The notes under the pieces were generated by a model, which saw only the letters and a list, made by a program, of their open reading frames with translations, was not told where the DNA came from and searched no databases. Both the position numbers and the translations under genes were made by a program. 64,000 bases of DNA from Pseudomonadales bacterium. GTDB lineage: Bacteria > Pseudomonadota > Gammaproteobacteria > Pseudomonadales > Pseudohongiellaceae. The stretch spans positions 36,613 to 100,612 of the forward strand of contig JAJDVS010000066.1 in assembly GCA_022825945.1 (NCBI GenBank), written 5' to 3'. Below, one piece after another: positions 19,473 through 36,198 of the stretch (its first letter is position 1; every line of letters starts with the position of its first letter).

Positions 19473-19621
19473 GTTCCCAGCCGTTTGTTGATTGTGTGTT
19501 GTGTTTTTGTGCGGGTATTGCTCTGCCTGTTTCCGTCATCCTGCGCACAGTCGCGAATTCTCGCAGAAAACGGCGCTGCGCGCAGAAAGAAGTTGGAAAA
19601 CGCACAACTTGAGTCGACGTA

Positions 19622-20661
19622 GGCTGGTGGAGCGTTCATCGGGCGCGCAGGTTGAAAAACTCCAGCGGCGTTTTGGTTTGTCGAAGGTGGTGCTGGTGGG
19701 CGACCGGGGCATGTTGACCGAGGCGCGCATTCGGGAAGAGGTGAAGCCGGCGGGGCTGGACTGGATTGGGGCCTTGCGGGGTTCTGCGATCCGGTCCCTG
19801 GTCGAGTCGGGCGCGGTGCAACTGTCGCTGTTCGATGAAAAGGATTTGATCGAGGTGCGCAGCGATGTCTATCCCGGCGAGCGGCTCATGGTCTGCCGCA
19901 ACCCGCTGCTGGCGGAGGAACGGGCGCGCAAGCGCGGGGAACTGCTTGTGGCCACCGAACAGTTGCTCGCCCCCATCGGGGAGGCGACGCGGCGGGAAAA
20001 GCGTCGCCTGCGGGGCGCGGAGAGGATTGGGGAAAGGGTGGGCCACCACATCGGCAAATTCAAGGTGGCCAAGCATTTTGAGTGGTGGATCGATGCCGGA
20101 GGCGCCCTCCGGTATCGCAGGGATGCCGCCTCCATCGCCGCCGAGGCGGCGTTGGACGGGTTGTACGTCATCCGCGCCAGCGTGCCGGACAGCGAGCTTG
20201 ACGCGCGGGCCACGGTATCCGCATACCAGCGGTTGAGCGCGGTGGAGCGGGCTTTCCGCAGCCTGAAGACGGTTGACCTGCGGGTGCGTCCGGTGTTCCA
20301 CCGCACCGAAGGGCGGGTCCGCGCCCACGTGCTGCTGTGCATGTTGGCCTATTATGTCGAATGGCACATGCGCCAGCGCTTGGCGCCGCTGCTGTTTGAC
20401 GACGGGCATCCCGGCGGGGCGGGGCGCGAATCGGTGGTGGCGTCGGCGCGGCCATCGGCGTCCGCGATGGACAAGGCCAAGCGCAAGCGCAACGCCGATG
20501 GCGACCCGGTGCGGAGTTTCCGTTCCCTGCTTGCCGATCTGGCGACGATTGCCAGGAATACCGTGGTGGCCGGATCGTCCGGGGCGGAACCTTTCGAGAT
20601 GCTCACGCGTCCCACTCCCTTGCAACGCAAAGCCTTCGAGCTGCTTGGCGTCCGGCTGTAG
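19622..20661 (+). pseudogene. IS1634/IS4-type DDE transposase, 5'-truncated
   Basis: VVLVGDRGMLTEARI, YQRLSAVERAFRSLKTVDLRVRPVFHRTEGRVRAHVLLCMLAYYVEWHMR. The N-terminal third, including the first catalytic Asp, is absent. Confidence 0.85.
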
Positions 20662-20873: not shown

Positions 20874-21884
20874 CTAGAACCGCACCACCATTTTGCCGAA
20901 GTTTTCGCCTGAGAACAGGGCGAGGAAGGCGTCTACCGCGTTTTCCACGCCTTCATAGACGGTTTCCCGGGTACGGATCTTGCCGTCGATGATCCATTGG
21001 CTCATGTCTTTTTCGAAGTCCGGGCGCATGTCTTCGTGGTCGGAGATGATGAAGCCCTGGATACGCAGTTTCTTGCCGACGATGTACATGAGGTTGTTGG
21101 GGCCGGGGACGGGTTCGGAGTTGTTGTAGCCGGAAATCATGCCGCAGGCGACGATGCGGCCGAATGGGTTCATGACATTGATGGCGGCCTGAAGATGGTC
21201 GCCGCCGACGTTTTCGAAGTAGACGTCGACGCCATCGGGCGCCGCGGCATGCAGCACCCGGGTCAGGCTGCCGCAGTTGCGGTAGTTGATGGTGGCGTCC
21301 ACGCCGCATTCATCCCTGAGCCACTCGGCCTTGGCGTCGCTGCCGACGCTGCCCACCACCCGGCAGCCCTGCTGTTTGGCGATCTGGCAGACATTGGCGC
21401 CCACCGCTCCGGATGCCGCGGAGACGAACACCGTCTCGCCCTCCTTCGGCTCGCCGAATTTGCGCAGGCCCACGTAGGCCGTCATTCCCGGCATGCCCAG
21501 AGCGCCGAGATAGAGCGAGATTCGTTCGCGGTCGAAAGGCTCAAGTCGCTGCAGGTGGGAAGCCCTGGCCACGAACCGGTCCTGCCAGGCGGCGAAATTG
21601 AGGACGATGTCTCCCGGCTTCAGGCTCGGGTCCCTGGATTCCACCACCTCGCCCACGGCCCCGCCGTACATGGGAGCATTGAGTTGAAACGGCGCGGCGT
21701 ACACGGCGTCGGCGCGCATGCGACCGCGCATGTAGGGATCAACCGACATATAGCGGTTTTCCACCAGGGCCTCGCCCTCGCCGGGCGCGGGCAGGTCCAC
21801 TTCCACAAGCCGGAAGTGTTCGTGGCCCGGCATGCCGGCGGGTCGTTCAATCAGGTGAATCTGTTTTGCGGTGCGGGAAGTCAT
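20874..21884 (-). CDS. NADP-dependent oxidoreductase, MDR superfamily (CurA/prostaglandin reductase-like)
   Basis: SVDPYMRGRM, GALGMPGMTAYVGL, VSAASGAVGANVCQIAKQQGCRVVGSVGSDAKAEWL. Confidence 0.9.
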   Translation of the reverse strand: MTSRTAKQIHLIERPAGMPGHEHFRLVEVDLPAPGEGEALVENRYMSVDPYMRGRMRADAVYAAPFQLNAPMYGGAVGEVVESRDPSLKPGDIVLNFAAWQDRFVARASHLQRLEPFDRERISLYLGALGMPGMTAYVGLRKFGEPKEGETVFVSAASGAVGANVCQIAKQQGCRVVGSVGSDAKAEWLRDECGVDATINYRNCGSLTRVLHAAAPDGVDVYFENVGGDHLQAAINVMNPFGRIVACGMISGYNNSEPVPGPNNLMYIVGKKLRIQGFIISDHEDMRPDFEKDMSQWIIDGKIRTRETVYEGVENAVDAFLALFSGENFGKMVVRF

Positions 21885-21893
21885 GGTTACTCC

Positions 21894-23897
21894 TCAGTGG
21901 GTCGTTTTGGCGAATTGGTGTTGCCAGACGATGACGCCGGCAAGCAGGGCGGCGCCGGCGGCATGAAAATAGATCGGCAGCGGCATCCACATCAGCAGGG
22001 CCGCGCTGAGCGCGAGCAATACGGCGATGATGACATTGATGGGCTTCTCCAGGTGCCATTGCAATAGTCCCGCCAAGGCATACAGCCCCGGGCAGGCCCA
22101 GAGGAATACTTCCAGCCGCTCGGCCCAGCTTCCGGAAATCAGCGGCGAATAGGCGAACAGCACGGGTATCAGATACAGCCCCTTGGCGATTTTCCAACTC
22201 GTGAATCCCGTGGCGATGGGCCGGGTGCCGGCAATGCCCGCAGCGGCGAAGGATACCAGACATACCGGTGGCGTGACATTACTGTCCTGGGATAACCAGA
22301 ATATGATCAGATGGGCACTGAGCAGCATGCCCATGAGGAGTTCCGCCGGCAGCATTTCGGCGCGGATCAATTGCTTCATTTCCAATGGCATCTGTTGCAG
22401 GGCGAGCGCCGCGTCGCTGCCGAACAGGCCGATGGTGGCGGCCACGTTGGAAGGCAGGTCGGCGGCCCGCAAGGCTTCCAGCAGTTGCGACTGGCTGATC
22501 AGGTCGAAGATCAGCGGCGCCGAAAGCGTGGCCAGAACGATGTAAGAGGCGGTCACCGGCAGTCCCATGCCGAGCACCAGGGAGGCGAGGGCCACCAGCA
22601 ACAGGGTGATCAGCAGCGAACCGCCGGCCCAATCGGCGATCATCAGCGAAAAGGCGTTGCCGACCCCCGTGGTGGTGACCACATTGATGACGATGCCCAC
22701 CGCCACCAGCAGCAGGGCCGTGGAAACCATGGTTTTCACCCCATTGACCACGGCGTCGAAGATGTCGCTGAGCCCCATGGGGCGCGGCGAAATCCACGAG
22801 GCCGCAATCACGCTGAGGATGGCGAAAGCGGCCGAAGTCGTGGGGGTGCGCCCGCTGACCAGAAAAGCCACCAGGGTGACGATGGGAATGATGAAATGCC
22901 AGCCTTCCCGCAGCACCGCGGAAACCTTTTCGGCGTCGGCGGCAAGCTGCGGCGCGAGCCCCAGCCGTTTCGCCTCGATGCGGATAAAGAAAGATACGGT
23001 CAGAAAATACAGCACCGCGGGCAGCATGGAGGCGCCGATTACCGTGAGATAGGGAATCTGGGTATAGCTGGCCAGCACAAAGGCGCCGGCCCCCATCACC
23101 GGCGGCATCAGCGCGCCGCCGGTGGAAGAAGCCGCCTCGACCCCTGCGGCAAAGCGCGGCTGAAAACCCGATTTGCGCATCATGGGAATCGTGATGACTC
23201 CGGTGGAAACCGTATTCGCCACCGCCGAACCCGACACCGAGCCCATCAGCCCGGAACCCACCACCGCCACAAGCCCCGCCCCGCCGGTAAAACGCCCCGC
23301 CAGGCACTGGGCCAGCCGCACGATGAAATCCCCGGCGCCGGACTTGAGCAGGAAGGAGCCGAAGATGATGAACATGAATACGAAGGTGGAAGAAATCTGC
23401 GCGGTCAGCCCGAACATGCCTTCGCTGGTGAAATAGCTGCGATAGAGCACGGTTTCCAGGTTGAGACCGGGAAAGGCGAATACCCCGCCGATGTAGCGCC
23501 CGAGGAAGAGGATGTAGGAAAGGCTGACGGCGATCAGGACCGGCATGAACCAGCCCGTGGTGCGGCGGGTAAACTCGATGGCCAGGGCGATGGCGATCAA
23601 TGCGAACGCAAAATCGCCAAGGATGAATTCAGTCTCCCGGGCGTATAGCGCGTTCTCGAACAGGATGAGATAAGCAGCTACGGACACCGCAAGCAGCGCC
23701 AGGCCGATATTGGCCCAATAAGCCGGCGAGCGTCGCGTCAGCCCCGGAGCTTCATTGCCGAGCAGGGCGCAGATGGCGACAAAACCGCCAAAATGAATCG
23801 CCGACAGCCACAGTTCGGAAATGCTTGCGAACACATTGCAATAGATATGGAACAGGGCGAAAGCGAAGGCGGCCCAGCGCAGTGGAGTGGAATTCAT
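21894..23897 (-). CDS. TRAP transporter fused permease subunit (4TM/12TM)
   Basis: Long multi-TM protein; GSGLMGSVSGSAVANTVSTGVITIPMMRKSGFQPRFAAGVEAASSTGGALMPPVMGAGAF. Confidence 0.93.
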   Translation of the reverse strand: MNSTPLRWAAFAFALFHIYCNVFASISELWLSAIHFGGFVAICALLGNEAPGLTRRSPAYWANIGLALLAVSVAAYLILFENALYARETEFILGDFAFALIAIALAIEFTRRTTGWFMPVLIAVSLSYILFLGRYIGGVFAFPGLNLETVLYRSYFTSEGMFGLTAQISSTFVFMFIIFGSFLLKSGAGDFIVRLAQCLAGRFTGGAGLVAVVGSGLMGSVSGSAVANTVSTGVITIPMMRKSGFQPRFAAGVEAASSTGGALMPPVMGAGAFVLASYTQIPYLTVIGASMLPAVLYFLTVSFFIRIEAKRLGLAPQLAADAEKVSAVLREGWHFIIPIVTLVAFLVSGRTPTTSAAFAILSVIAASWISPRPMGLSDIFDAVVNGVKTMVSTALLLVAVGIVINVVTTTGVGNAFSLMIADWAGGSLLITLLLVALASLVLGMGLPVTASYIVLATLSAPLIFDLISQSQLLEALRAADLPSNVAATIGLFGSDAALALQQMPLEMKQLIRAEMLPAELLMGMLLSAHLIIFWLSQDSNVTPPVCLVSFAAAGIAGTRPIATGFTSWKIAKGLYLIPVLFAYSPLISGSWAERLEVFLWACPGLYALAGLLQWHLEKPINVIIAVLLALSAALLMWMPLPIYFHAAGAALLAGVIVWQHQFAKTTH

Positions 23898-24985
23898 GGG
23901 TTGGCGTCAGGCTCCTTGCCGGGACCGGGTGCCGCCATGGCGGAGGGTTCTTCCAGCAGCAACCTCTCCGGAATTTCCAGGCCCACCTCCCGGTAGTAGC
24001 GCAGGGCGCCGGCGTGCAGCGGGGCGCCGAGGCCGGCGATGGCGATTTCGGGCCTCATGTCCCGGGTGGCGCCATGGATTTCCTGCAGGGTGGCGAGGTT
24101 TTCCCAGATTACCCGGGTGATGTGATACACCGCCGCTTCGGGAATATCGACCCGGGTCACCAGCACATTGGGCGAGGCCACCGTGCGCACGGACTCGGTC
24201 TGATTGGGATAGGTCAGCGGCGGAAAATCGTACCAGTCCCACAGGGGATAGCGCGCATTGATCTGGTCCAGGGCCTGCTGGGACCAGTTCAGAATCCGCA
24301 TGCGCTCGCCCATGATGGCGTAGGCCTGGGTGATGGAACTTACCGGCGCGCCGGCGGGAATGTTCATGCCGACGATATTGCCGTCCTGGATGGCGCCCAC
24401 GGTGGGGCCGTAGCCCATGTAGCCCAGGGTGAACCTGTTCTCGTAGTCCACGCCCAGGGTTTCCAGAATGAAGCGCCCGGTCTGCTCGGCGCCGGAATTG
24501 CGCGCACCAAGCACGTAGCGTTCCCCGTCGAGATTGTTCAGGTCCATGATGTCGCCGGAGGTCGCGAGTTCGCTCAGCAATACGAAATGCTCGACGTTCT
24601 TCCACAGCGCGCTCACCGAGCGGATATGGCTCTGGGGCTCCCGTACCGGGCCTTCCCCGGCCCAGGACCAGGCGCCGAAAGGCCCCTGCAGAATCGCGAA
24701 CTGGGCCTGGTTGTCCCGCAACAGCTTGAGATTCTCCATGGAGCCGGCGGAGCTGATTGCCGTCAGGGAAACATTTTCGGTTTCGGACAACTCGGCATGG
24801 GCGATGGTGGCGATGGCGACTCCCACGGGATAAAACACGCCGCCGGTGGTGGCGGTGGTGAGCACATAGGGCCGCGCCCGGCTCAACTCGTCGCTGCAGC
24901 CGGTCAAAGCCGCCGCCAATACGGTGATGAGAACTGCGCGTCCGATCAAGAGCGGGCCCTCTTGGTATTTTCTGAAAAACTCCAT
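23894..24985 (-). CDS. TAXI family TRAP transporter solute-binding subunit
   Basis: LTTATTGGVFYPVGVAIATIAHAEL..., NLDGERYVLGARNSGAEQTGRFILETLG; 4-bp overlap with the permease gene. Confidence 0.88.
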   Translation of the reverse strand: MEFFRKYQEGPLLIGRAVLITVLAAALTGCSDELSRARPYVLTTATTGGVFYPVGVAIATIAHAELSETENVSLTAISSAGSMENLKLLRDNQAQFAILQGPFGAWSWAGEGPVREPQSHIRSVSALWKNVEHFVLLSELATSGDIMDLNNLDGERYVLGARNSGAEQTGRFILETLGVDYENRFTLGYMGYGPTVGAIQDGNIVGMNIPAGAPVSSITQAYAIMGERMRILNWSQQALDQINARYPLWDWYDFPPLTYPNQTESVRTVASPNVLVTRVDIPEAAVYHITRVIWENLATLQEIHGATRDMRPEIAIAGLGAPLHAGALRYYREVGLEIPERLLLEEPSAMAAPGPGKEPDANP

Positions 24986-25135
24986 CCATGGAGTTTTTCA
25001 TTATCGCAAAACAAAAGCGTGGTTTTGTTTTGCCGACGAATTCAATGGCTTGCGCTATCGAATTCGGCGGCACTTCCATGTGCCGCAGGACCAGGTAAGC
25101 TCTGATTTAATCAGGGCTTACCTGGTCCTGCGGCA
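24974..25135. repeat. Cluster of five successive inverted repeats (hairpins)
   Basis: 24974-24999 (11-bp arms); 25006-25033 (11-bp); 25032-25071 (12-bp arms, 11/12); 25067-25086 (7-bp); 25081-25135 (20-bp perfect arms plus inner 6-bp arms). Confidence 0.9.
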
Positions 25136-25600
25136 ATCATAAATGAATTGCCTGAGATATTCCGGGGTCTGGATGACCTGCTCGTTCAGGAACAACTCAG
25201 GATGTATCTCGCCCTCGCTATAGCCCACCGGACGCTGGGTGGCCGCTGCGACGACCCAGGACGCCGCGGGGCGTTTCGCGCCGAGAATGCGCTCGAGGTT
25301 TTGCGGAGGGATTCCCAGCAGGCCGGCTACCGCCACATCGGTGGCCCGGATCCTGCGCCGGTTCAGGCAGGAAAGCACTTCCCGGGGGCTGAAGCGGTCG
25401 GATACCGGGCGCTCGCCGCTCATCTTGCCTACCAGCAGGGCGGTTCCGGCGAATACCGTGGCGGCGATGGTAATGCCGAGCACCATGGTCAGGCGGTAGA
25501 ACATGGCGATTTGCACGCCGCCGAAATAGTACGCCGCCTCGGCAAGCGCATTGACAAGAATCAGGGCGGTAAAAAAAGTAATCCAGACCGCTTTCTTCAC
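25118..25600 (-). CDS. Small membrane protein of unknown function
   Basis: MKKAVWITFFTALILVNALAEAAYYFGG... two TMs, soluble basic C-terminus; co-oriented with the upstream operon. Confidence 0.55.
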   Translation of the reverse strand: MKKAVWITFFTALILVNALAEAAYYFGGVQIAMFYRLTMVLGITIAATVFAGTALLVGKMSGERPVSDRFSPREVLSCLNRRRIRATDVAVAGLLGIPPQNLERILGAKRPAASWVVAAATQRPVGYSEGEIHPELFLNEQVIQTPEYLRQFIYDCRRTR

Positions 25601-25633
25601 GGAATTGCCGTTACTCCGGGATGAACTCCGGGC

Positions 25634-27292
25634 TCAGTCGGAGCCCGCGCCGCCCGAGAGTAGCAGCAAACCCTCTATGTTCCCAATTTCATCGCGAGAC
25701 AGGAGGAAAATGTCGTGGATGCCGTCGTCGTTGAGATGGGCGCTGAGCACTTCGCCAGCCTCCGCCGCGGGGCCGGCGTCAAGGCGGATATCCGGCTCGC
25801 GGCCCGCCACTTCCCGCAGATGCCGGTTCTCGCCGATGCTGATGTCGTTGATCATCGCCCGCAGGTCGATGCGGTAGTCGTCGCGTTCGCGGCTGTAGTC
25901 CAGCGAGCCGAGAAACTCCCGCTGTTCGGGTTCCGGTTCGATGCTGTTGTAGAACACCTGCAACTGCCGGTCCACCAGGATCAGCAAGTCCAGCGGGTCG
26001 GCTTCATTGTCGAGCCGGGCCGTGGCCGATGAAACCAGGTCGGCGCTGCGGGTCGCCTCGGCGGCTTCGGTCAGTTCGCTGTAGTCGCCGGCAAGCCCCA
26101 CCAGGGAGGGAATTTGCAGCGACACGATGATTCTGCGGCTCGGGCGGCGGGCGAATCGCTCGCCGTCGTTGGGATAGATCAGCGCTTCCACCGCAATATC
26201 GCTGGACAGCACCAGCCAGAGGAAGATATCGCCGAGGGAAATCGATTCCACCCGCCAGAGCCACAGGTCCTTGAGACCGTCGCCGTCTTCGTCGTGGAGA
26301 AAACTGCCGAGCACATTGCCCCCGGAGCGCAGCACCTGCCGGGGGGTCGCCAGCTCCATGCCGGTGGCGGTTCCCGCGAACAGGGAAATCTTGCCGCCCT
26401 CCCGCAGCAGCAGATCGTCGATACCATCGCCGTCCACGTCTTCCAACAACTCCTCGTGGGTCAGGGCGAGAATGCCGGTGAGGTTGGAGAAATCGAGATT
26501 GTCCACGTCAAATTCGCCGAGACGCTCCTCGATTTCCGCAAGGTCGATACTGTAGCTTGGCGCGAGCGGGAAGTAACCCGGCGCTTCCGGGTCGGCGAGG
26601 AAGACCGCGAGCAATTCATCGGTTTCCGAAATCAGGTCCGGATCCCCGTCGGCGTTGAGGTCGCGCAGGCTCAGGGAGGGAATCGTCACCGCCTGACCCG
26701 TGCGCCAGAACAGGCTGCGGGAATTGAGATTGGTTCGCAGGCGGGTATCCGACTGCACCGGCAGCGGCGACCGGAAAGCGCCATCCGCCTCGCGCAAATG
26801 GATATGCAATGCGCCGGGGGCCGGGGTTACCAGGTCCATCAGGCCGTCGGCATTGATGTCCCGGGCGAAATGCAGGCGGTTGAGCCCGGGGCTGAGAAAG
26901 CCGTTCACGCCGCTGAGCAGGGTTTCCGATTCGCTCAGGGCGCCGTCCCGCAAACGCCAGGCGAGAACCCGCTTGCCATCGAGCAGGGCGAGGAGCGTCG
27001 CGGCCTCGCCGGAATCAATGCCCCGGGCAATATCCCAGCCAACCGAGCGCGCATCGAAGCCCAGGCTGATAAAGCCCCGGTCGAAATCAAAACCCTGCTC
27101 GCCCTGGGGGTAAATCCGCAGTTCCTCGTCGATGACCGCGATGATTTCCTGTCTGGCGTCGCCGTCGAGGTCGGCGAGCACCAGATTTCCGGTTTCGGCG
27201 GGCAGGCTCAGGGGCTGGGAGCGGAATCCCCAGTCATCGGCGCCCGCCAGGCAAGGCAGGCAGGCCAGCACGGCAATCAGGCAGCGCTTCAT
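25634..27292 (-). CDS. FG-GAP/VCBS repeat secreted protein (copy 2)
   Basis: Signal peptide; LADLDGDARQEIIAV, DINADGLMDLVTP, DLNADGDPDLISE, DVDGDGIDDLLLRE, DEDGDGLKDLWLW. Confidence 0.85.
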   Translation of the reverse strand: MKRCLIAVLACLPCLAGADDWGFRSQPLSLPAETGNLVLADLDGDARQEIIAVIDEELRIYPQGEQGFDFDRGFISLGFDARSVGWDIARGIDSGEAATLLALLDGKRVLAWRLRDGALSESETLLSGVNGFLSPGLNRLHFARDINADGLMDLVTPAPGALHIHLREADGAFRSPLPVQSDTRLRTNLNSRSLFWRTGQAVTIPSLSLRDLNADGDPDLISETDELLAVFLADPEAPGYFPLAPSYSIDLAEIEERLGEFDVDNLDFSNLTGILALTHEELLEDVDGDGIDDLLLREGGKISLFAGTATGMELATPRQVLRSGGNVLGSFLHDEDGDGLKDLWLWRVESISLGDIFLWLVLSSDIAVEALIYPNDGERFARRPSRRIIVSLQIPSLVGLAGDYSELTEAAEATRSADLVSSATARLDNEADPLDLLILVDRQLQVFYNSIEPEPEQREFLGSLDYSRERDDYRIDLRAMINDISIGENRHLREVAGREPDIRLDAGPAAEAGEVLSAHLNDDGIHDIFLLSRDEIGNIEGLLLLSGGAGSD

Positions 27293-28833
27293 GGGCTCGA
27301 CACCAGCACCGTGGTGGACGTTCCATGCCGCAGCACGAAATCGGGCAACTCATCGGCGTTCAGGCGCTCCACGGCAATCTGGAATACCGAACGCGGCGCG
27401 ACATATTCCCAGAAATCCTCGCTTTCAATCTGCAAATCCCCATTGATGCGCCGCGCCGCCAGCGTGCCCCGCCCGGTTACGTAGAGCGCGTCGGAGCGGC
27501 CATCGCCGTCGAGGTCATGGCCGAACTGGATGGGCTCGGCCAGCCCCCGCACATTGTCCACCGAAAAAGTCTCCTCCAGGCGCATGGCGGGACGGCGGTT
27601 GAATAACTGGCCGTCCGCCGCATCGGCTCCTTCGGCGCCGCGATAGAGCAGGCTCACCCGCTGCACGCCGGTATTGCGGATCGCCTCCATGGCGGGCACA
27701 GCGTACCAGGTCGCCGCCAGCACGGGCTCGCCATGAATCCGGACCGCTTCCAGCCCCAGATCGTATCCGCCGAAGCGCAGTACCTGGGCCGGGCTGTCCA
27801 GATCGAATTCGCCGCCCTGGTTCGGATACAGTCTGGCGTCCCGATCATCGCCCTGTTCGACTACCTGGATGAGATCGATTTGTTCGTCGCCGTCGAGATG
27901 GGCCAGCCGCCAGTCGCCCCTGGTTTCGAGTGGGCCGGACCAGTCGGGTTTTTCGGCGAAGTTGCCGGCTTGCTGAAAATGCACGTTGAGCCGACCCAGG
28001 CCGTCGACTCCCTGGTTCACATAGACCAGGTCGGGCAGCCCGTCGCCATCGAATTCAGCGAACAGGGCGCCGGGCATCCAGCTTTGGGCTTCGAACAGCG
28101 CCCGTCCGGTCTTGCCATCCCATTGCTCGATGAAATCGCCGAAAGCCGTGGGCGTTTCCGCGCGGAATTCGATCACTATGCCCTGCTCCGCGTCGATGCT
28201 TGCCCGGGCGTCCAGGTCGGTTGCAAAATTCTCGCGAACCAACCGCGGCACTTCGGGATTTTCGGTCGCAATCATCGCCGCCAGCGCAAAGCGCTCATCG
28301 CCGAGCCCGCGAAAATAACCGTAGCCTTCAGCTCCCGGCACAAGCAGGTCGACGTGGCCATCGCCGTCGAGGTCGGCGATGTCGCGCACGAACTGCACGC
28401 CTTCCCTGTCCGGCAAGGCGGCGATCAACTCCCAGGCGAATAGCTGGCGAATATTGCCGGCATAGCCCGGCGTGCCGCTGGCGAGGCTGTACACCCCGTC
28501 TCCGGCAAACAGCAGCAACTCCTTGCCCGGCCCGGAGCGCAGGTCGGCAAAACCGATGGCGACGATTTCGCTCTTGATTTCCACCCGGACGGGTTCCGCG
28601 GCAAAGCCGCCATCGGCCTGTTGATGGTGGATCAGCAGTTCCCGGCCCACGCCGGGGCGGTATTCCGCGAACAACAGGTCGGCGCGGCCATCGCCGTTGA
28701 CGTCCTCGGTAACCAGATCATCCCAGTTGTCGCCGCGCTGCAAGTCAAATGCGGTGTAGTTCTGGGCGGCGGCGCCGGTAGCCATAGCCACAGTCGCCAG
28801 CAGCAGAACGAATTGCAGGGAAAAAGTCTTCAT
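27289..28833 (-). CDS. FG-GAP/VCBS repeat secreted protein (copy 1)
   Basis: Signal peptide; EDVNGDGRADLLFAEY, DLDGDGHVDLLVPG, EFDGDGLPDLVYV, DLDGDGRSDALYV; 4-bp overlap with the next gene. Confidence 0.85.
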   Translation of the reverse strand: MKTFSLQFVLLLATVAMATGAAAQNYTAFDLQRGDNWDDLVTEDVNGDGRADLLFAEYRPGVGRELLIHHQQADGGFAAEPVRVEIKSEIVAIGFADLRSGPGKELLLFAGDGVYSLASGTPGYAGNIRQLFAWELIAALPDREGVQFVRDIADLDGDGHVDLLVPGAEGYGYFRGLGDERFALAAMIATENPEVPRLVRENFATDLDARASIDAEQGIVIEFRAETPTAFGDFIEQWDGKTGRALFEAQSWMPGALFAEFDGDGLPDLVYVNQGVDGLGRLNVHFQQAGNFAEKPDWSGPLETRGDWRLAHLDGDEQIDLIQVVEQGDDRDARLYPNQGGEFDLDSPAQVLRFGGYDLGLEAVRIHGEPVLAATWYAVPAMEAIRNTGVQRVSLLYRGAEGADAADGQLFNRRPAMRLEETFSVDNVRGLAEPIQFGHDLDGDGRSDALYVTGRGTLAARRINGDLQIESEDFWEYVAPRSVFQIAVERLNADELPDFVLRHGTSTTVLVSSP

Positions 28834-29771
28834 TGGACCTCTTCGATCAACTCGCCATAACCAGTACTGAAATGGATCAGGCCGAGGATGGAATGGGAGC
28901 GCTCGCCTTCGTTGCGGGCATAGGAGTACACCGAAAACAGCCAGAAATCCAGCACATCGAGGCTGGCGGAATCCGGGTCCAGGCTCGACCGGTATTGCAG
29001 CACCGGGCCGAGAGATATTTCGCTGAGGCGCCGGCCCGGGTTCCACAATTCGACTTCCGCCCGCCGCAGACTGCTGCCGTCCCAGACATCGAACAGCACT
29101 TCGCCGCCAAGTGCATGTTCCCGGCTGAGCCGGTTGACGAGTTCCTGGGCCGAGCCGAAACCCGCGCCGTCCAGGGCAAATATCCAGTCTCCCACGCCGA
29201 TGCCGGCCGCCGGCAGGGGACTGCCGGGAAACAGCGCCATCACCTGCGCTCCGCCTCTTGAGGCCTGGCCGGTTACTTCGATCACGCCACTGCGATAACC
29301 CGCCCGGGTGGCCACGGGATCGACCCGGTACAACTCTGTCGGGCCGGCATTCAAGGCGATTTCCCGGCCCGTCACGCTGGCCGAAAGCACGGCGGTATCG
29401 CGCCGCAAGATGAATGCATAGGGCGCTTGGCGATAGCTCGTCCGCTGGATGGCGAGCACGGCGTCCGGGCTGTTGGTTTCCATTTCGTCGATGGCGAGAA
29501 TCACGTCACCCACCTGGATTCCCGCCGCATCCGCCGGACCATTGGCGGCGACTTCCACCACCCGAACCCCGGGCAGAATCTCCACCGCGGCCAGGGAATC
29601 GCTTTCGTTCAGCGCCAGCCCAAGGCCGAAATCCACCAGCAAACCGGCATTGCTCCGCCCCAGGCTGAGCTGTTCCGGCGAAAGATTGATGGCGGGCGCC
29701 AGCCGCGCCGGCTCATATGCCGCACAACAAGCCATCAGGCCGCACAGGGCAAGGGATGACAGTCGCAACAT
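28830..29771 (-). CDS. PDZ-domain lipoprotein
   Basis: Lipobox LMAC; VRVVEVAANGPADAAGIQVGDVILAIDE (PDZ) and a second PDZ-like GSPLPAAGIGVGDWIFALDG. Confidence 0.8.
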   Translation of the reverse strand: MLRLSSLALCGLMACCAAYEPARLAPAINLSPEQLSLGRSNAGLLVDFGLGLALNESDSLAAVEILPGVRVVEVAANGPADAAGIQVGDVILAIDEMETNSPDAVLAIQRTSYRQAPYAFILRRDTAVLSASVTGREIALNAGPTELYRVDPVATRAGYRSGVIEVTGQASRGGAQVMALFPGSPLPAAGIGVGDWIFALDGAGFGSAQELVNRLSREHALGGEVLFDVWDGSSLRRAEVELWNPGRRLSEISLGPVLQYRSSLDPDSASLDVLDFWLFSVYSYARNEGERSHSILGLIHFSTGYGELIEEVQ

Positions 29772-29775
29772 CGGC

Positions 29776-30633
29776 CTACAACCTGCGCCGCAGGGCCAGC
29801 AGCACCGCGGCCGCGGCCAGCGTCAGGGCCGCAATGGCGGGCGCCCAGGTATTGAACACAAAAAAGCGGTCGGCCACGAGCACATCGGAAAATCCCCGCA
29901 CCAGCCTCGCCACTTCGCGCAAATACGACTGATCCAGCAGCGATGGATGAAAAGTCGCGTACAGATACCAGGCGCGCTCGCCGAGCAGCGCCTTGAAGAT
30001 ATCCATGGCCAGGGTCGCGCCCAGGGCAAGCGTTACCGCCTGGGTCGCCGACTGGGCCGCAACCGAAACCAGCATGCCGAAGGCGATCACGGCGGGCAGG
30101 GGGATGACCGCCATCAGCAGGCCCAGATGGATTTCATGGAGGATTTCATCCTCGCCGATCAACTCGAATCCATCCTCGACCACCGGCCCGAAATCCCAGA
30201 ACATTGCCGCCCCCGCCCAGGCCGCGAGCCCGAGCAGGGCCAAGGCCAGCAATCCGAGCAGATGCAGCCGCAGCAGTTTCGCCAACACGATGCTGGCGCG
30301 GCCGGCGCGGCGGATCAGCACATGGCGAATCGAGCCATTGTCGCGTTCGCCGCTGAAATCATGGGCGGCCACCGCCACCAGCAACAGCGCCAGAATCATC
30401 AGCCCGGTGTTGACGCCATCGACGAAATGCCCGTATGCGTTCCGAGACTGGATCAGGGCAAAGTCGTCGGCGCCGATCAGTCCCGCCCGAGCCCGCTCCC
30501 CCGCCTGATTGAGCCAGACCAGCACATAGCGCGCCAGACAAACCAGCGCCGGCGCCAGCACGGTGATTTTCGCCGCCAGCGAATAGCGGGCGAGGAACAG
30601 TTCGAGGCGCAGGGCCGCCAGCAGAGAGTTCAT
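29776..30633 (-). CDS. ABC-2 type transporter permease
   Basis: Six-TM pattern, HDFSGERDNGSIRHVLIRRAGRASIVLAKLL typical of ABC-2 permeases. Confidence 0.82.
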   Translation of the reverse strand: MNSLLAALRLELFLARYSLAAKITVLAPALVCLARYVLVWLNQAGERARAGLIGADDFALIQSRNAYGHFVDGVNTGLMILALLLVAVAAHDFSGERDNGSIRHVLIRRAGRASIVLAKLLRLHLLGLLALALLGLAAWAGAAMFWDFGPVVEDGFELIGEDEILHEIHLGLLMAVIPLPAVIAFGMLVSVAAQSATQAVTLALGATLAMDIFKALLGERAWYLYATFHPSLLDQSYLREVARLVRGFSDVLVADRFFVFNTWAPAIAALTLAAAAVLLALRRRL

Positions 30634-31550
30634 GCCGCCTCCCCCGCCGTCAGTTCGCGGAACAGGCCATCGAGAGAAGCTCGTTGCCTCACCAGTTCGC
30701 ATACCGGCACCCCGTGACGCACCAGATGCGCGGCAAGCTCATCGCTGCGCCAGTCCCCAAGCCGCAGGCTCAGACGGTCGTCCGGGCCGCCCTCGATAAT
30801 TTCGACCCGTCCGTCATCCGCCAGCAGTTTTCTGGCAGCGGTGGAGTCGCTGCTTTCCAGGACCACCCGCGAGCCGGCGTCCGCCAGCAGGCCCGCCAGT
30901 TCGCCACTCGCGGCAATCCTGCCGTCATGAAGAATCGCAATATGACTGCAGACCTGTTCCAGATAGGGCAACTGGTGGCTCGAAAGCAAGAAGCTCGTGC
31001 CACTGGCGCGATTCAGGTCCGCAATCAGGGCGAGTACCTGGTCCACGCCGCTGGCGTCGAGCCCATTGAAAGGTTCATCGAGGAGAATCAGCCGGGGTTC
31101 GCCGAGCAGGGCCTGGGCAATCGACACCCGCCGCCGGTTGCCGAGGGAGAGCTGACGGATGCGGTAGCGGCTGTAGGCTTCCACCCCAAGCATCCGCTCG
31201 ACTTCGGCGCAGCTTCGCAACGGTCGCGCACACAGCCGGCGGGCGTGTTCGAGACACTGGCGCACGGTCAGATGGGGAGGCACGCTGGGGCTGTCGAAAA
31301 TCGCCACGACCTCGCCCCGCAGGCGAAACAGGGCGTCGGGAGCAAAGCCCAGCACCGAAACTTCACCCTGCTGAAAATGCTGCAGGCCGAGAATGCACTC
31401 GATGGTGGTGGTCTTGCCCGAGCCATTAAGCCCCACGAGACCGAGCACGGCGGCGGCGGACAATTCCAGGTCCACGCCATGCAGTACCGGCACATCGCCA
31501 TAGCTTTTGCGCAGTCCGCTTACCCGCAGTACAGAACCGGTTTCATTCAT
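30630..31550 (-). CDS. ABC transporter ATP-binding protein (CcmA/BcrA-like)
   Basis: Walker A GLNGSGKTTTI, variant signature LSLGNRRRVSIAQALL, Walker B LILLDEPFNGLD. Confidence 0.92.
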   Translation of the reverse strand: MNETGSVLRVSGLRKSYGDVPVLHGVDLELSAAAVLGLVGLNGSGKTTTIECILGLQHFQQGEVSVLGFAPDALFRLRGEVVAIFDSPSVPPHLTVRQCLEHARRLCARPLRSCAEVERMLGVEAYSRYRIRQLSLGNRRRVSIAQALLGEPRLILLDEPFNGLDASGVDQVLALIADLNRASGTSFLLSSHQLPYLEQVCSHIAILHDGRIAASGELAGLLADAGSRVVLESSDSTAARKLLADDGRVEIIEGGPDDRLSLRLGDWRSDELAAHLVRHGVPVCELVRQRASLDGLFRELTAGEAA

Positions 31551-31589
31551 AAGCCGGGCTTGGCGCGAAGCGTCGCACCCGATTCCCTG

Positions 31590-34586
31590 TCAGTCCGCGA
31601 ACAATTCATCCACCCGGACCTGTTGGACCCGACCGAAGGGTTCGAGTTCCGCCAGATCGATCACCGACAGGTCGCCGACGATGGAAATCAGCTTGGCCCG
31701 GTCCTTGACGTGCTGCCGCTGGAATTCCACGAGATCGTCCATGCTCGCCTGCTGCAATTCGGCATAGCGCCGGCGCCGCGGGTCGCCTTCGAGGCCAAGC
31801 CGCTCCCACCCCCGCACCGCCGGCAGCACTTCCCGAAAACCGAGCTTGGAAGTGCGGTAGCGGTTGAGGGACGCATTGACGGTTTCCTCGAATCGTTCGG
31901 TGGAGACCGGCATATTGTCGATGAGGTCGATAAAGGCGGTGAGGGCCTCGGCGGTCTTGTCGGTCTGGGTGCCGATGGCGCCAAGCATCAGGTTCTGGTC
32001 ATTGCGCCGCCCGCCCTGGGCATAGCGCGCCGATGCCGAATAGGCCAGCGCCCGGGCTTCCCGCAGTTCCTGGAAAACCACGCTGGACATGCCGCTGCCG
32101 AAATAGCTGGTATATAACGAAGACAGCATGCTGTCGCCCTCGTCATACACGCCGTCTGCGAATTCGATCCGCACCTGGGCCTGGGCGGTTTGCTGATCGA
32201 CCACGTAGAGTTCGGTTTCCCCAATGTCCCGCGCCTGACGGAAGCGATACCCGGGCGGCGCCTGGAGTTCGCCGTCGTTGGGCAGGTGGCGGCGCAGGAT
32301 GGCCGCCACATCTTCCAGCGGCAGCGAACCGGTGTAGGCGATGGTCTGTTCGTATCCCAGCAGGCTCGCCGGCAAGCCGAGCAATTCCTCGAGTCCGGAC
32401 TGCATGATCTCCTCGCTGGTCAGCGATTCGAGCATTGGCGATTCCTCGCCGTAACGGTTGTACAGATACAGCGCCCGGGCGATGGCCGGCGGCGACTGCT
32501 TCTGGTCCTCCCTGGCCTTGAGGATGATGCCTTTCAATTGCTCCAAAGTGTTTTCGTCCGATACCGGTTCCCGCACGAGTTCCAGCATCAGGGCGAGGCT
32601 GTCCTCGAATTGGTCGTCGAGACCCGAGAGGTTGAAACTCGATGCATTCTCCGCCACCCGGAAGCCGAACTCCGAGCCCATGCGGTACCACTGTTTCTGC
32701 AAATCCTCATTGCTCAGGGAAGCGCTGCCGGCCACGTCCATCAGGGCGGCGGACAGGCTCAGCTTGCCCATTTCCTCCGAACCGGCGTCCACATTGATGG
32801 ACAGGGTGAACAGGTCATTGAGCGGATTGGGGGCGTAATACAGTTGCACGCCCCCGGCGAGGTCGAGGATGCGGTAGTCCCGGTCGGCCTCGACAAAAAC
32901 CGGCTCGATGGAATCATGGTCCATGGCGAGCACCCGGGCGGCGAACGCCGACTGCCGGGTGGGATCGATTTCCACCGGGTCGATCACGGGTTTTTCCACC
33001 AGCGGCACTTCATGCTGGCCGTTGACCTGCTCCACCGCCACGTAATCACCGCCAAAATAGCGGTTGGCCACGGCGACCACATCGTCCCGGGTCAACTCGC
33101 CCATGCGCTCGAGTTCGGCGACGCGGTAATCCCAGTCCACGCCGCGAATAAAGGCATCGCGCATGCGCGCCACCCGGGCGGTATTGGATTCCAGCCCGGC
33201 CTTTTCATTCCTGGCGAAGTCATTGATGATGGCGGGAATGATCCAGTCCTCGAACTCCCCCTCCTTGATGATTTCAATCTGCTCGAGCAGCAACCGCTCG
33301 ACTTCGGCGAGCGTCTGATCCTGCTTGGGCACGCCGTAGAGCAACTGGTAGCCGGCGTCCACAAGGAAAGCGGGCGAGGAGCCGGCCCGGGCCACCCGCT
33401 GCTGCTGGTTGAGATTGAGATTGATCAGCCCGGCGGTGCGATTGTCGAGAATCATGTCGAGCAGGATAAGGGCTTCCATATCGGGATGGGCATAGGGCGC
33501 CGTGGGAAAGGCGAGCTGTACCTGTTCCTCGCCAGGGTATTGCACCGTGGCCCTGCGCACGCCTTCCACGGGCGGATCGTTCCAGGGGCCGATCCGCGGC
33601 AATTCCCCCGGCTGCCAATGGCCGAATTTCCCGGCGATCAGGGCAATCGTTTCGGGAATGTCGATATCGCCGCTGACGAACACCGCCATGTTGTTGGGGA
33701 CATACCAGGTGTCAAAGTAGTTCTGGATATAGACCAGGGACGGATTCTTGAGATGGTCCACGGTACCGATGGTGGGCTGCTGGCCATAGGGATGTTCGGG
33801 AAACAGCAGGTCATTCAGCGCCTGGTAGATGATGAAACTGCGGTTGTCCAGGGCGCGGTTCTTTTCCTCGTAAACGGTTTCGAGTTCGGTGTGAAACAGG
33901 CGGAACACCGGATTGACGAAACGGTCCGATTCGATTTCCGCCCATTGCCGCAGGCGGTTGGAAGGCAGTCCCACCCGATACACGGTTTCCTCGTTGGAAG
34001 TATGGGCGTTCAGGCCGCTGGCGCCCATACTGTTGTAGAGCTTGTCGATTTCATTGGGAATGGCGTACTGCGCCGCCTGCTGGGCGGTGGCGTTGATTTC
34101 GGCGTAAATCGCGGCGCGCTCGGTCGGGTCTTCGCTGGCGAAATGCGCCTCGTACAATTCGACGATGCGGTCGAGATACGGCGCTTCGGCCTCGTAGTCG
34201 AGACTGCCGAGATTGCGGTTGCCCTTGAACAGCAGATGCTCGAGATAATGGGCCAGCCCGGTGGCGTCGGCCGGGTCGTGCTTGCTGCCCGCCCGCACGG
34301 CGATTTCCGCGTAGAACCGCGGCTCCTCATGATTTTCCGTCAGATAGACCAGCAGGCCATTGTCGAGCCGGTAGATATGGGTATCCATCTGGTCGAGCGG
34401 ATTGGGAGCATTGACGCGGATATACCCCGGCCCCGCCCCGGCTTCCGCAAGCTGGGCGCCTTCCATTGCGGCCGCATCTCCGCCAACCCCGCCGTCAGGC
34501 CCGGCTCCGGGCTCGCCACAGGCAGCAAGCAGCAACATTCCCGGGCAGGCAATGAAATAGCGCAATCCAGAAAACAAATCAGTCAT
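31590..34586 (-). CDS. M16 family zinc metalloprotease lipoprotein
   Basis: Lipobox LLAAC; HYLEHLLFKG (HxxEH inverted zinc motif); 998 aa with duplicated M16 halves. Confidence 0.93.
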   Translation of the reverse strand: MTDLFSGLRYFIACPGMLLLAACGEPGAGPDGGVGGDAAAMEGAQLAEAGAGPGYIRVNAPNPLDQMDTHIYRLDNGLLVYLTENHEEPRFYAEIAVRAGSKHDPADATGLAHYLEHLLFKGNRNLGSLDYEAEAPYLDRIVELYEAHFASEDPTERAAIYAEINATAQQAAQYAIPNEIDKLYNSMGASGLNAHTSNEETVYRVGLPSNRLRQWAEIESDRFVNPVFRLFHTELETVYEEKNRALDNRSFIIYQALNDLLFPEHPYGQQPTIGTVDHLKNPSLVYIQNYFDTWYVPNNMAVFVSGDIDIPETIALIAGKFGHWQPGELPRIGPWNDPPVEGVRRATVQYPGEEQVQLAFPTAPYAHPDMEALILLDMILDNRTAGLINLNLNQQQRVARAGSSPAFLVDAGYQLLYGVPKQDQTLAEVERLLLEQIEIIKEGEFEDWIIPAIINDFARNEKAGLESNTARVARMRDAFIRGVDWDYRVAELERMGELTRDDVVAVANRYFGGDYVAVEQVNGQHEVPLVEKPVIDPVEIDPTRQSAFAARVLAMDHDSIEPVFVEADRDYRILDLAGGVQLYYAPNPLNDLFTLSINVDAGSEEMGKLSLSAALMDVAGSASLSNEDLQKQWYRMGSEFGFRVAENASSFNLSGLDDQFEDSLALMLELVREPVSDENTLEQLKGIILKAREDQKQSPPAIARALYLYNRYGEESPMLESLTSEEIMQSGLEELLGLPASLLGYEQTIAYTGSLPLEDVAAILRRHLPNDGELQAPPGYRFRQARDIGETELYVVDQQTAQAQVRIEFADGVYDEGDSMLSSLYTSYFGSGMSSVVFQELREARALAYSASARYAQGGRRNDQNLMLGAIGTQTDKTAEALTAFIDLIDNMPVSTERFEETVNASLNRYRTSKLGFREVLPAVRGWERLGLEGDPRRRRYAELQQASMDDLVEFQRQHVKDRAKLISIVGDLSVIDLAELEPFGRVQQVRVDELFAD

Positions 34587-34722: not shown

Positions 34723-36198
34723 TCAAAGAGCGATGGCTTCGATCAGGCTCATCAGGGATGCGGGGTACACGCCGAACAGGATCAGCAGGGCGAAAAGCGC
34801 CAGCACCACGGCGAATCCCGCACTGCCCCGCTCCAGAACAGGGGCGTTTTCGGGCTGCGGCAGCAACATGCGGTAGACTATTCGCAGGTAATAGTAGAGG
34901 CCAATGCCGCTGCCGATCACCAGCGCGCCAAGCAGCAGCCAGAGCCCGGATTCGACTCCCGCCAGAATGAGGTAGAACTTGCCGATAAAACCCGCGGTGA
35001 GCGGAATTCCCGCCAGTGACAGCAACATGCCGGTGAAGGAGGCGGCGAGCCAGGGCCGGCGCCAGAACAGGCCCTGATAATCGGCGATGCCGTCCCTTTC
35101 CCCGGCATGGCTGGAAACCAGCGTCACCACGCCAAAGGCCCCCAGGGTCATGACGACGTAGGCCAGCAGGTAAAAACTCACCGCTTCAATGCCGATGGGT
35201 CCGTCGCTGTAGAAACTGGCAATGATTGCGATCAGCAGATAGCCCATGTGGGCGATGGAGGAGTAGGCAAGTATCCGCTTGAGATTATCCTGCAACAGCG
35301 CAAGCAGATTGCCGGCGATGATGGACAGCAGGGCAAGCAGGGAGAACACGATGACCACTGGCGCCATGCCCAGGGCCCGGGTTTCCACCACGATGCGCAG
35401 CAGTACGATAAACACCGCGAGCTTGCCTATGGTGGCCAGAAAGGCGGTGGCCGGCGCCGGTGCGCCTTCATAGACATCCGGGGTCCAGATATGAAAAGGG
35501 AACAGCGAAAGCTTGAAGGCAATGCCGGCGGAAATCAGCAGCAGCGCCACGGTGGAAAAGGCGATGCCGGGGCCGGCGGGCAGCAATTCCAGGCCGGTGA
35601 ATGCGAGGCTGCCGGTCTCGGCGAAGACCAGGGCGACGCCGAACAGGATCATGGCGGTGGATACCGCCGACAGAATCAGGTACTTGATGGTGGCTTCCAG
35701 CGCATGGCCCTTGTGCTGTCGGCTCTGCACGGGATAGGCGAGCATGCCGTACAGCGACATGCTGAGGATTTCCAGTCCCAGCAGCAAACTCGCAAAATGG
35801 TTGGCGCCGGCCAGCACCACGGCGCCCAGCGTCGCCAGCAGCAATAACAGCAGAAACTCTTCCCGCTGGTCGTCGAATTCGGACCAGTAATTGTGTCCCA
35901 GGAGGCACACGCCGATGGCCGTTGCGCAAATCAGCACGGTAAAGAACTGGGCATGGCTGTCCATGCCCAGCAGTGGCATCGCCGCAAATTCGGGCTCCAG
36001 CATCAGGCCATGGGCCATCAACAGGGCAAGCAACAGGCCGTTCACCGTGGAACCCAGCGCAACGGCGTAATTGCGCTTTACGCCAATGGCCAGCATGACC
36101 CAGACCGACGCCGCGGTGAGAATAATCAGGGGCAGCAGCGGTATCAGGTCTCGCACGCCCATGGTGTAGCCGGCGAAGTCCATGCTGACCAGGTTCAT
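34723..36198 (-). CDS. nuoN: NADH-quinone oxidoreductase subunit N
   Basis: Multi-TM antiporter-like; FKLSLFPFHIWTPDVYEGAPAPATAFLATIGK; last gene of the nuo operon. Confidence 0.96.
   Translation of the reverse strand: MNLVSMDFAGYTMGVRDLIPLLPLIILTAASVWVMLAIGVKRNYAVALGSTVNGLLLALLMAHGLMLEPEFAAMPLLGMDSHAQFFTVLICATAIGVCLLGHNYWSEFDDQREEFLLLLLLATLGAVVLAGANHFASLLLGLEILSMSLYGMLAYPVQSRQHKGHALEATIKYLILSAVSTAMILFGVALVFAETGSLAFTGLELLPAGPGIAFSTVALLLISAGIAFKLSLFPFHIWTPDVYEGAPAPATAFLATIGKLAVFIVLLRIVVETRALGMAPVVIVFSLLALLSIIAGNLLALLQDNLKRILAYSSIAHMGYLLIAIIASFYSDGPIGIEAVSFYLLAYVVMTLGAFGVVTLVSSHAGERDGIADYQGLFWRRPWLAASFTGMLLSLAGIPLTAGFIGKFYLILAGVESGLWLLLGALVIGSGIGLYYYLRIVYRMLLPQPENAPVLERGSAGFAVVLALFALLILFGVYPASLMSLIEAIAL

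Follow-up and report, generated by a model that had tools for sequence, protein, structure and literature searches.

An undescribed five-gene ABC transporter block of OM182/Pseudohongiella-type bacteria, with genes for a PDZ lipoprotein and a pair of FG-GAP propellers, behaves as one unit in retention, loss and relocation

Which genes of a tightly packed, co-directional run work together, and at what, is the question raised by the locus described here. The window, by which we mean the whole 64,000-nucleotide stretch of Pseudohongiellaceae DNA that was analysed, carries seven open reading frames on its minus strand at 25118-34586. A preliminary description had read all seven as one envelope operon, perhaps for the export or processing of a peptide or lipid at the cell surface or for resistance to it. 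The genes are listed here in the order in which they are read.

31590-34586, minus strand: M16, a zinc-peptidase-type lipoprotein of 998 aa with an HxxEH motif (H113, E116, H117); flanks the core and is separable from it
30630-31550, minus strand: ATP, an ABC ATPase of 306 aa with Walker A, signature, Walker B and H-loop motifs; core gene 1
29776-30633, minus strand: PERM, an ABC-2 permease of 285 aa (PF12679); core gene 2
28830-29771, minus strand: PDZ, a two-PDZ-domain lipoprotein that ends in a beta-rich domain (Pfam, lipobox); core gene 3
27289-28833, minus strand: VA (VCBS1), a secreted FG-GAP/VCBS beta-propeller of 514 aa (PF13517); core gene 4
25634-27292, minus strand: VB (VCBS2), a secreted FG-GAP/VCBS beta-propeller of 552 aa (PF13517), distantly homologous to VA; core gene 5
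25118-25600, minus strand: P7, a small, probable two-TM protein, 160 aa here; flanking gene

In the window, all seven genes stand exactly as first described in order and direction, and the three 4-bp ATGA overlaps that join ATP to PERM (30630/30633), PDZ to VA (28830/28833) and VA to VB (27289/27292) are confirmed; the gaps between genes in the window measure 4-79 nt. Pfam assigns an M16 peptidase, an ABC ATPase, an ABC2_membrane_2 permease, a PDZ protein and two FG-GAP proteins, with no assignment for P7, and no NCBIfam model scored above its cut-off for any of the seven proteins. The export signals reported at the outset recur among relatives: in the alignments the lipobox cysteine never varies among orthologues of M16 or of PDZ (Cys16 in PDZ, which is a lipoprotein in all orthologues), and by eye the orthologues of both VCBS proteins have signal-peptide-like N-termini.

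Neighbourhood conservation had been suggested as one way to check the operon, and across genomes the five genes from ATP to VB are co-conserved with their order kept, with M16 and P7 separable from them. The complete block stands in the same order in 79 of 105 loci scanned, the remainder being mostly contig ends. A PDZ query found matches in 35 of 36 same-genus relatives, with the neighbouring block kept in the loci read, and a scan of the species genome collection yielded 80 loci, all in records from Pseudomonadales or Gammaproteobacteria (one of them OM182 and several Pseudohongiella sp.), with the same gene order wherever the contig was long enough. The same order is found in divergent genera (Pseudohongiella-type genomes) and is near-constant in the OM182/Pseudohongiella-type genomes sampled; such an arrangement is far beyond chance. 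In a family-wide search of 137 genomes, strong matches to the PDZ profile came from 80 of the 84 genomes in the window's genus, from 14 of 15 and 13 of 14 genomes of two other genera, and from two genera with one genome each; the block is near-universal in these five genera. The profile gave no strong match in 22 genomes of three further genera of the family, of which 17 were also tested for the M16 orthologue and the permease and lack both. Wider searches returned no true match for the VA and PERM profiles in samples of the phylum, only weak FG-GAP matches when 369 genomes of the class were searched with the VB profile, and no plasmid copies of PERM or VB. The best of the weak VB matches, in genome G062, was rejected as a distant copy of the block because it adjoins an RND pump and has no ABC block beside it.

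Several other genes lie close by. Just upstream of M16, and mostly divergent from it, many same-genus genomes have an operon of a TolC-type lipoprotein, a MacA-type protein, a MacB ATPase and an FtsX-type permease (loci L176, L177, L181 and L182; by eye); the TolC-MacA-MacB genes are present in part of the genus only and were for that reason not counted in the unit. Many genomes of the genus also have, upstream of M16, a gene for a conserved same-strand coiled-coil protein to which we assigned no function (1326-2465 in locus L093, and similar). After the block, in most same-genus genomes, come genes for a TAXI solute receptor, a fused 4TM/12TM TRAP transporter and a quinone-oxidoreductase-like protein (qor), at 20874-24985 in the window; these were excluded from the unit because they are not adjacent to it in Pseudohongiella-type genomes or in f273, another family of the order. 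The nuoN gene (34723-36198) lies directly upstream of M16 in the closest relatives only, which suggests that a rearrangement put the end of the nuo operon here, and it was excluded likewise. Further along, an IS4/IS1634-like transposase ORF recognised by eye (19492-20661) adjoins a stretch of low G+C content (0.487 at 16-18 kb vs about 0.62).

M16 lies directly upstream of the block in every complete locus of the family, and it was given a place in the machine in the preliminary description. However, genomes in which the locus is broken up argue against that place. In G790 the genes ATP, PERM, PDZ, VA and VB are all missing and M16 is followed directly by P7, 45 nt away. This genome is a MAG of 77% completeness, in which the deletion could be an assembly fault, a weakness common neither to G722 nor to the two f273 genomes. 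G722, of the genus Pseudohongiella and 100% complete, has kept M16 and lost the other six genes. Conversely, in G1011 and G1095 of f273 the genes ATP-PERM-PDZ-VA-VB stand in order with neither M16 nor P7, at two different loci with different neighbours, and the presence of the block in only 2 of the 91 genomes sampled of f273 would fit its transfer as a unit. The junctions differ in the same sense, in that stop and start signals overlap in 72 of 84 cases between ATP and PERM and in 87 of 96 between VA and VB, but in only 4 of 81 between M16 and ATP (counts that include some near-duplicate genomes). M16 also evolves at about half the block's rate, with a median protein distance of 0.32 vs 0.59-0.78 for the five core proteins. 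Once the background given by the three neighbours TAXI, TRAP and qor was removed, the distance matrices from 16 genomes correlated at 0.92 for VA and VB, 0.84 for ATP and PERM and 0.58-0.75 for the other pairs within the block, as against 0.25-0.57 for core proteins with M16. The five core proteins thus co-evolve more among themselves than with M16, and VA and VB, whose matrices track closest of all pairs, may well work as a pair. Given the separable M16, the losses and relocations of the block and the overlaps at its junctions, the seven-gene unit was rejected in favour of a five-gene unit, ATP-PERM-PDZ-VA-VB, with M16 and P7 as separable neighbours. Since its genes stay, disappear and move together, the block very likely encodes one cell-envelope machine.

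The two neighbours are best explained as genes that are kept at the same place but have functions of their own. In M16, H113, E116 and H117 as well as E234, E236, E240 and E241 are invariant in the alignment, and the third zinc ligand would be sought among these downstream glutamates. Its closest solved structures are 3amj and 3ami, with much weaker matches to 6b03 and 6brs, which we take to be FusC-type entries. P7 has about 82 aa in most relatives and ~160 aa in the close relatives of the window, where it has an extra C-terminal stretch.

Within the core, ATP has Walker A (GLNGSGKTT), signature (LSLGN), Walker B (LLLDEP) and H-loop (SSHQ) motifs, all invariant in 14 orthologues, and scores 86.7 bits with PF00005. 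PF12679 is found in PERM in 14 of 14 members, and no PDB relative of PERM was found by sequence. Judged by these features, an ATPase with all four motifs and an ABC-2 type permease, the two proteins are predicted to be an ABC-2 transporter. The AlphaFold model of PDZ (pLDDT 74.6) is matched by Foldseek to the PDZ regions only of DegQ, DegP and RseP. It thus shares with these proteins the fold of two PDZ domains but has neither a serine-protease nor a site-2 protease domain (PDZ models alone match, and no trypsin-like domain was found), and its C-terminal beta domain is new. Both propellers score well above the PF13517 cut-off (67.7 and 56 bits vs 26.9) and are distant homologues of each other (hhalign E 5e-18). 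In VA, which gave no PDB match by sequence, PF13517 covers five stretches, and the protein has about six DxDxDG-type loops. VB is modelled as an FG-GAP propeller (pLDDT 77.5), and its Foldseek matches, to the propellers of PVL lectin, KICSTOR, TcB and integrin alpha, are at fold level only (TM about 0.27).

While the kinds of component are known, their combination and the behaviour of the block are new to the sources searched. The combination of an ABC pair, a PDZ lipoprotein and FG-GAP propellers was not found in the papers searched, and the set is named in no library, paper or annotated record searched; the earlier reading of the locus as an undescribed, co-conserved and co-directional envelope set stands, matching no named system in these libraries and papers. 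We propose with moderate confidence that the genes at 25634-31550 encode one Gram-negative envelope machine that moves cargo or hands it to periplasmic partners. ATP and PERM would form an inner-membrane ABC-2 transporter, the PDZ lipoprotein would serve as docking and hand-over factor, probably on the periplasmic face of the outer membrane, and VA and VB, as paired beta-propellers of the calcium type, would sit in the periplasm or on the cell surface. Powered by ATP hydrolysis, the transporter may then move or release the cargo from the inner membrane to the PDZ/VA/VB set, although extraction or a part in maturation may fit the observations as well as export. In this proposal it is the physical complex, the outer-membrane location and the direction of transport that we infer. 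We would only tentatively go further and suggest that ABC-driven envelope machines include a new class here, its inner-membrane ABC-2 motor working with a PDZ lipoprotein and a heteromeric FG-GAP pair across the periplasm, in a function that none of the known ABC systems has.

Among the closest known systems is NosDFY-NosL, the ABC system for nitrous oxide reductase maturation, in which the CuZ centre is matured by NosDFY and the lipoprotein NosL is putatively placed at the outer membrane (PMC7660919). The ABC pair of the block might likewise supply the power for assembling an extracytoplasmic protein or for loading it with its cofactor, VA and VB then taking the place of NosD and PDZ that of NosL. 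The solved chain closest to ATP in the PDB search is in fact NosF, over the full length (E 3e-46), NosY and PERM both belong to PF12679, and the nos operon has a similar layout, with a periplasmic beta-rich protein and an ATPase, permease and lipoprotein in 4-bp overlaps, which shows that such a layout can serve protein maturation. However, PERM and NosY stand far apart in sequence (hhalign E 0.086, over 25 columns), the PF12679 superfamily being all that the two have in common. Pfam and NCBIfam scans found no NosD, NosL or NosZ among the seven proteins, and the block instead has a two-PDZ lipoprotein and two FG-GAP propellers, folds unlike the beta-helix and NosL. In addition, no candidate client enzyme adjoins the block in all genomes. 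We therefore regard a maturation role of this kind as possible but rather unlikely.

An envelope machine of five genes also has to be weighed against the original seven-gene system, in which M16 would act as the protease of a system exporting, processing or resisting a peptide or lipid. The constant position of M16 upstream of the block, its co-direction and the Fus ferredoxin system, in which an M16 protease and an ABC transporter are encoded in one operon (PMC7593965), all speak for it. In contrast to Fus (FusABCD), M16 is separable here, being kept where the block is lost and absent where the block stands alone, with about half its distance and a weaker correlation; its nearest solved relatives are 3amj/3ami, and none of the seven genes encodes a TonB-dependent receptor or a TonB-like protein. 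The signature of ATP had been read as a sign of lantibiotic or BcrA-type immunity. LSLGN is indeed kept in 81 of 83 orthologues (LSFGN in the other 2) and is the sole LSLGN among ~20 readable ABC signatures of this genome. This LSLGx-type signature presumably resembles that of BcrA, and the ABC-2 layout is shared with LanFEG and BcrAB. However, with the LanF model TIGR03740 (cut-off 309.75) ATP reaches 117 bits, no more than with the generic drrA and PQQ_ABC models, and the nearest solved ATPase is NosF rather than an immunity protein. Unlike LanFEG/BcrAB, the locus has no LanE or LanG match and has dedicated secreted propellers and a PDZ lipoprotein. A small precursor peptide, which the preliminary description had proposed to look for in or near the operon, was not seen either: no recurrent precursor-like ORF was found in the flanks of 75 loci, where the search took in ORFs from 60 aa upwards on the downstream side and from 90 aa upwards on the upstream side, and the gaps in the window are too small. 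Near-universal retention in five genera is also unlike a patchy immunity trait. Taken as a whole, the seven-gene system appears improbable.

Surface display or adhesion, with the propellers as adhesins or lectins whose surface anchor the ABC transporter supplies or modifies, is more doubtful still, since the resemblance of the VB model to PVL lectin and integrin alpha is at fold level within a very broad class, and neither a signal for export to the outer membrane nor an anchor for the cell wall was recognised. An anti-phage defence system was rejected because PADLOC returned generic ATPase matches for ATP only and none for the other six proteins.

The five-gene envelope machine that we prefer is encoded by OM182/Pseudohongiella bacteria, which are common in seawater metagenomes and mostly uncultured. 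Because nearly all members of five genera keep the block, it must serve something important for these bacteria. FG-GAP propellers, usually annotated just as repeats, gain here a testable set of partners, namely an ABC transporter and a PDZ lipoprotein.
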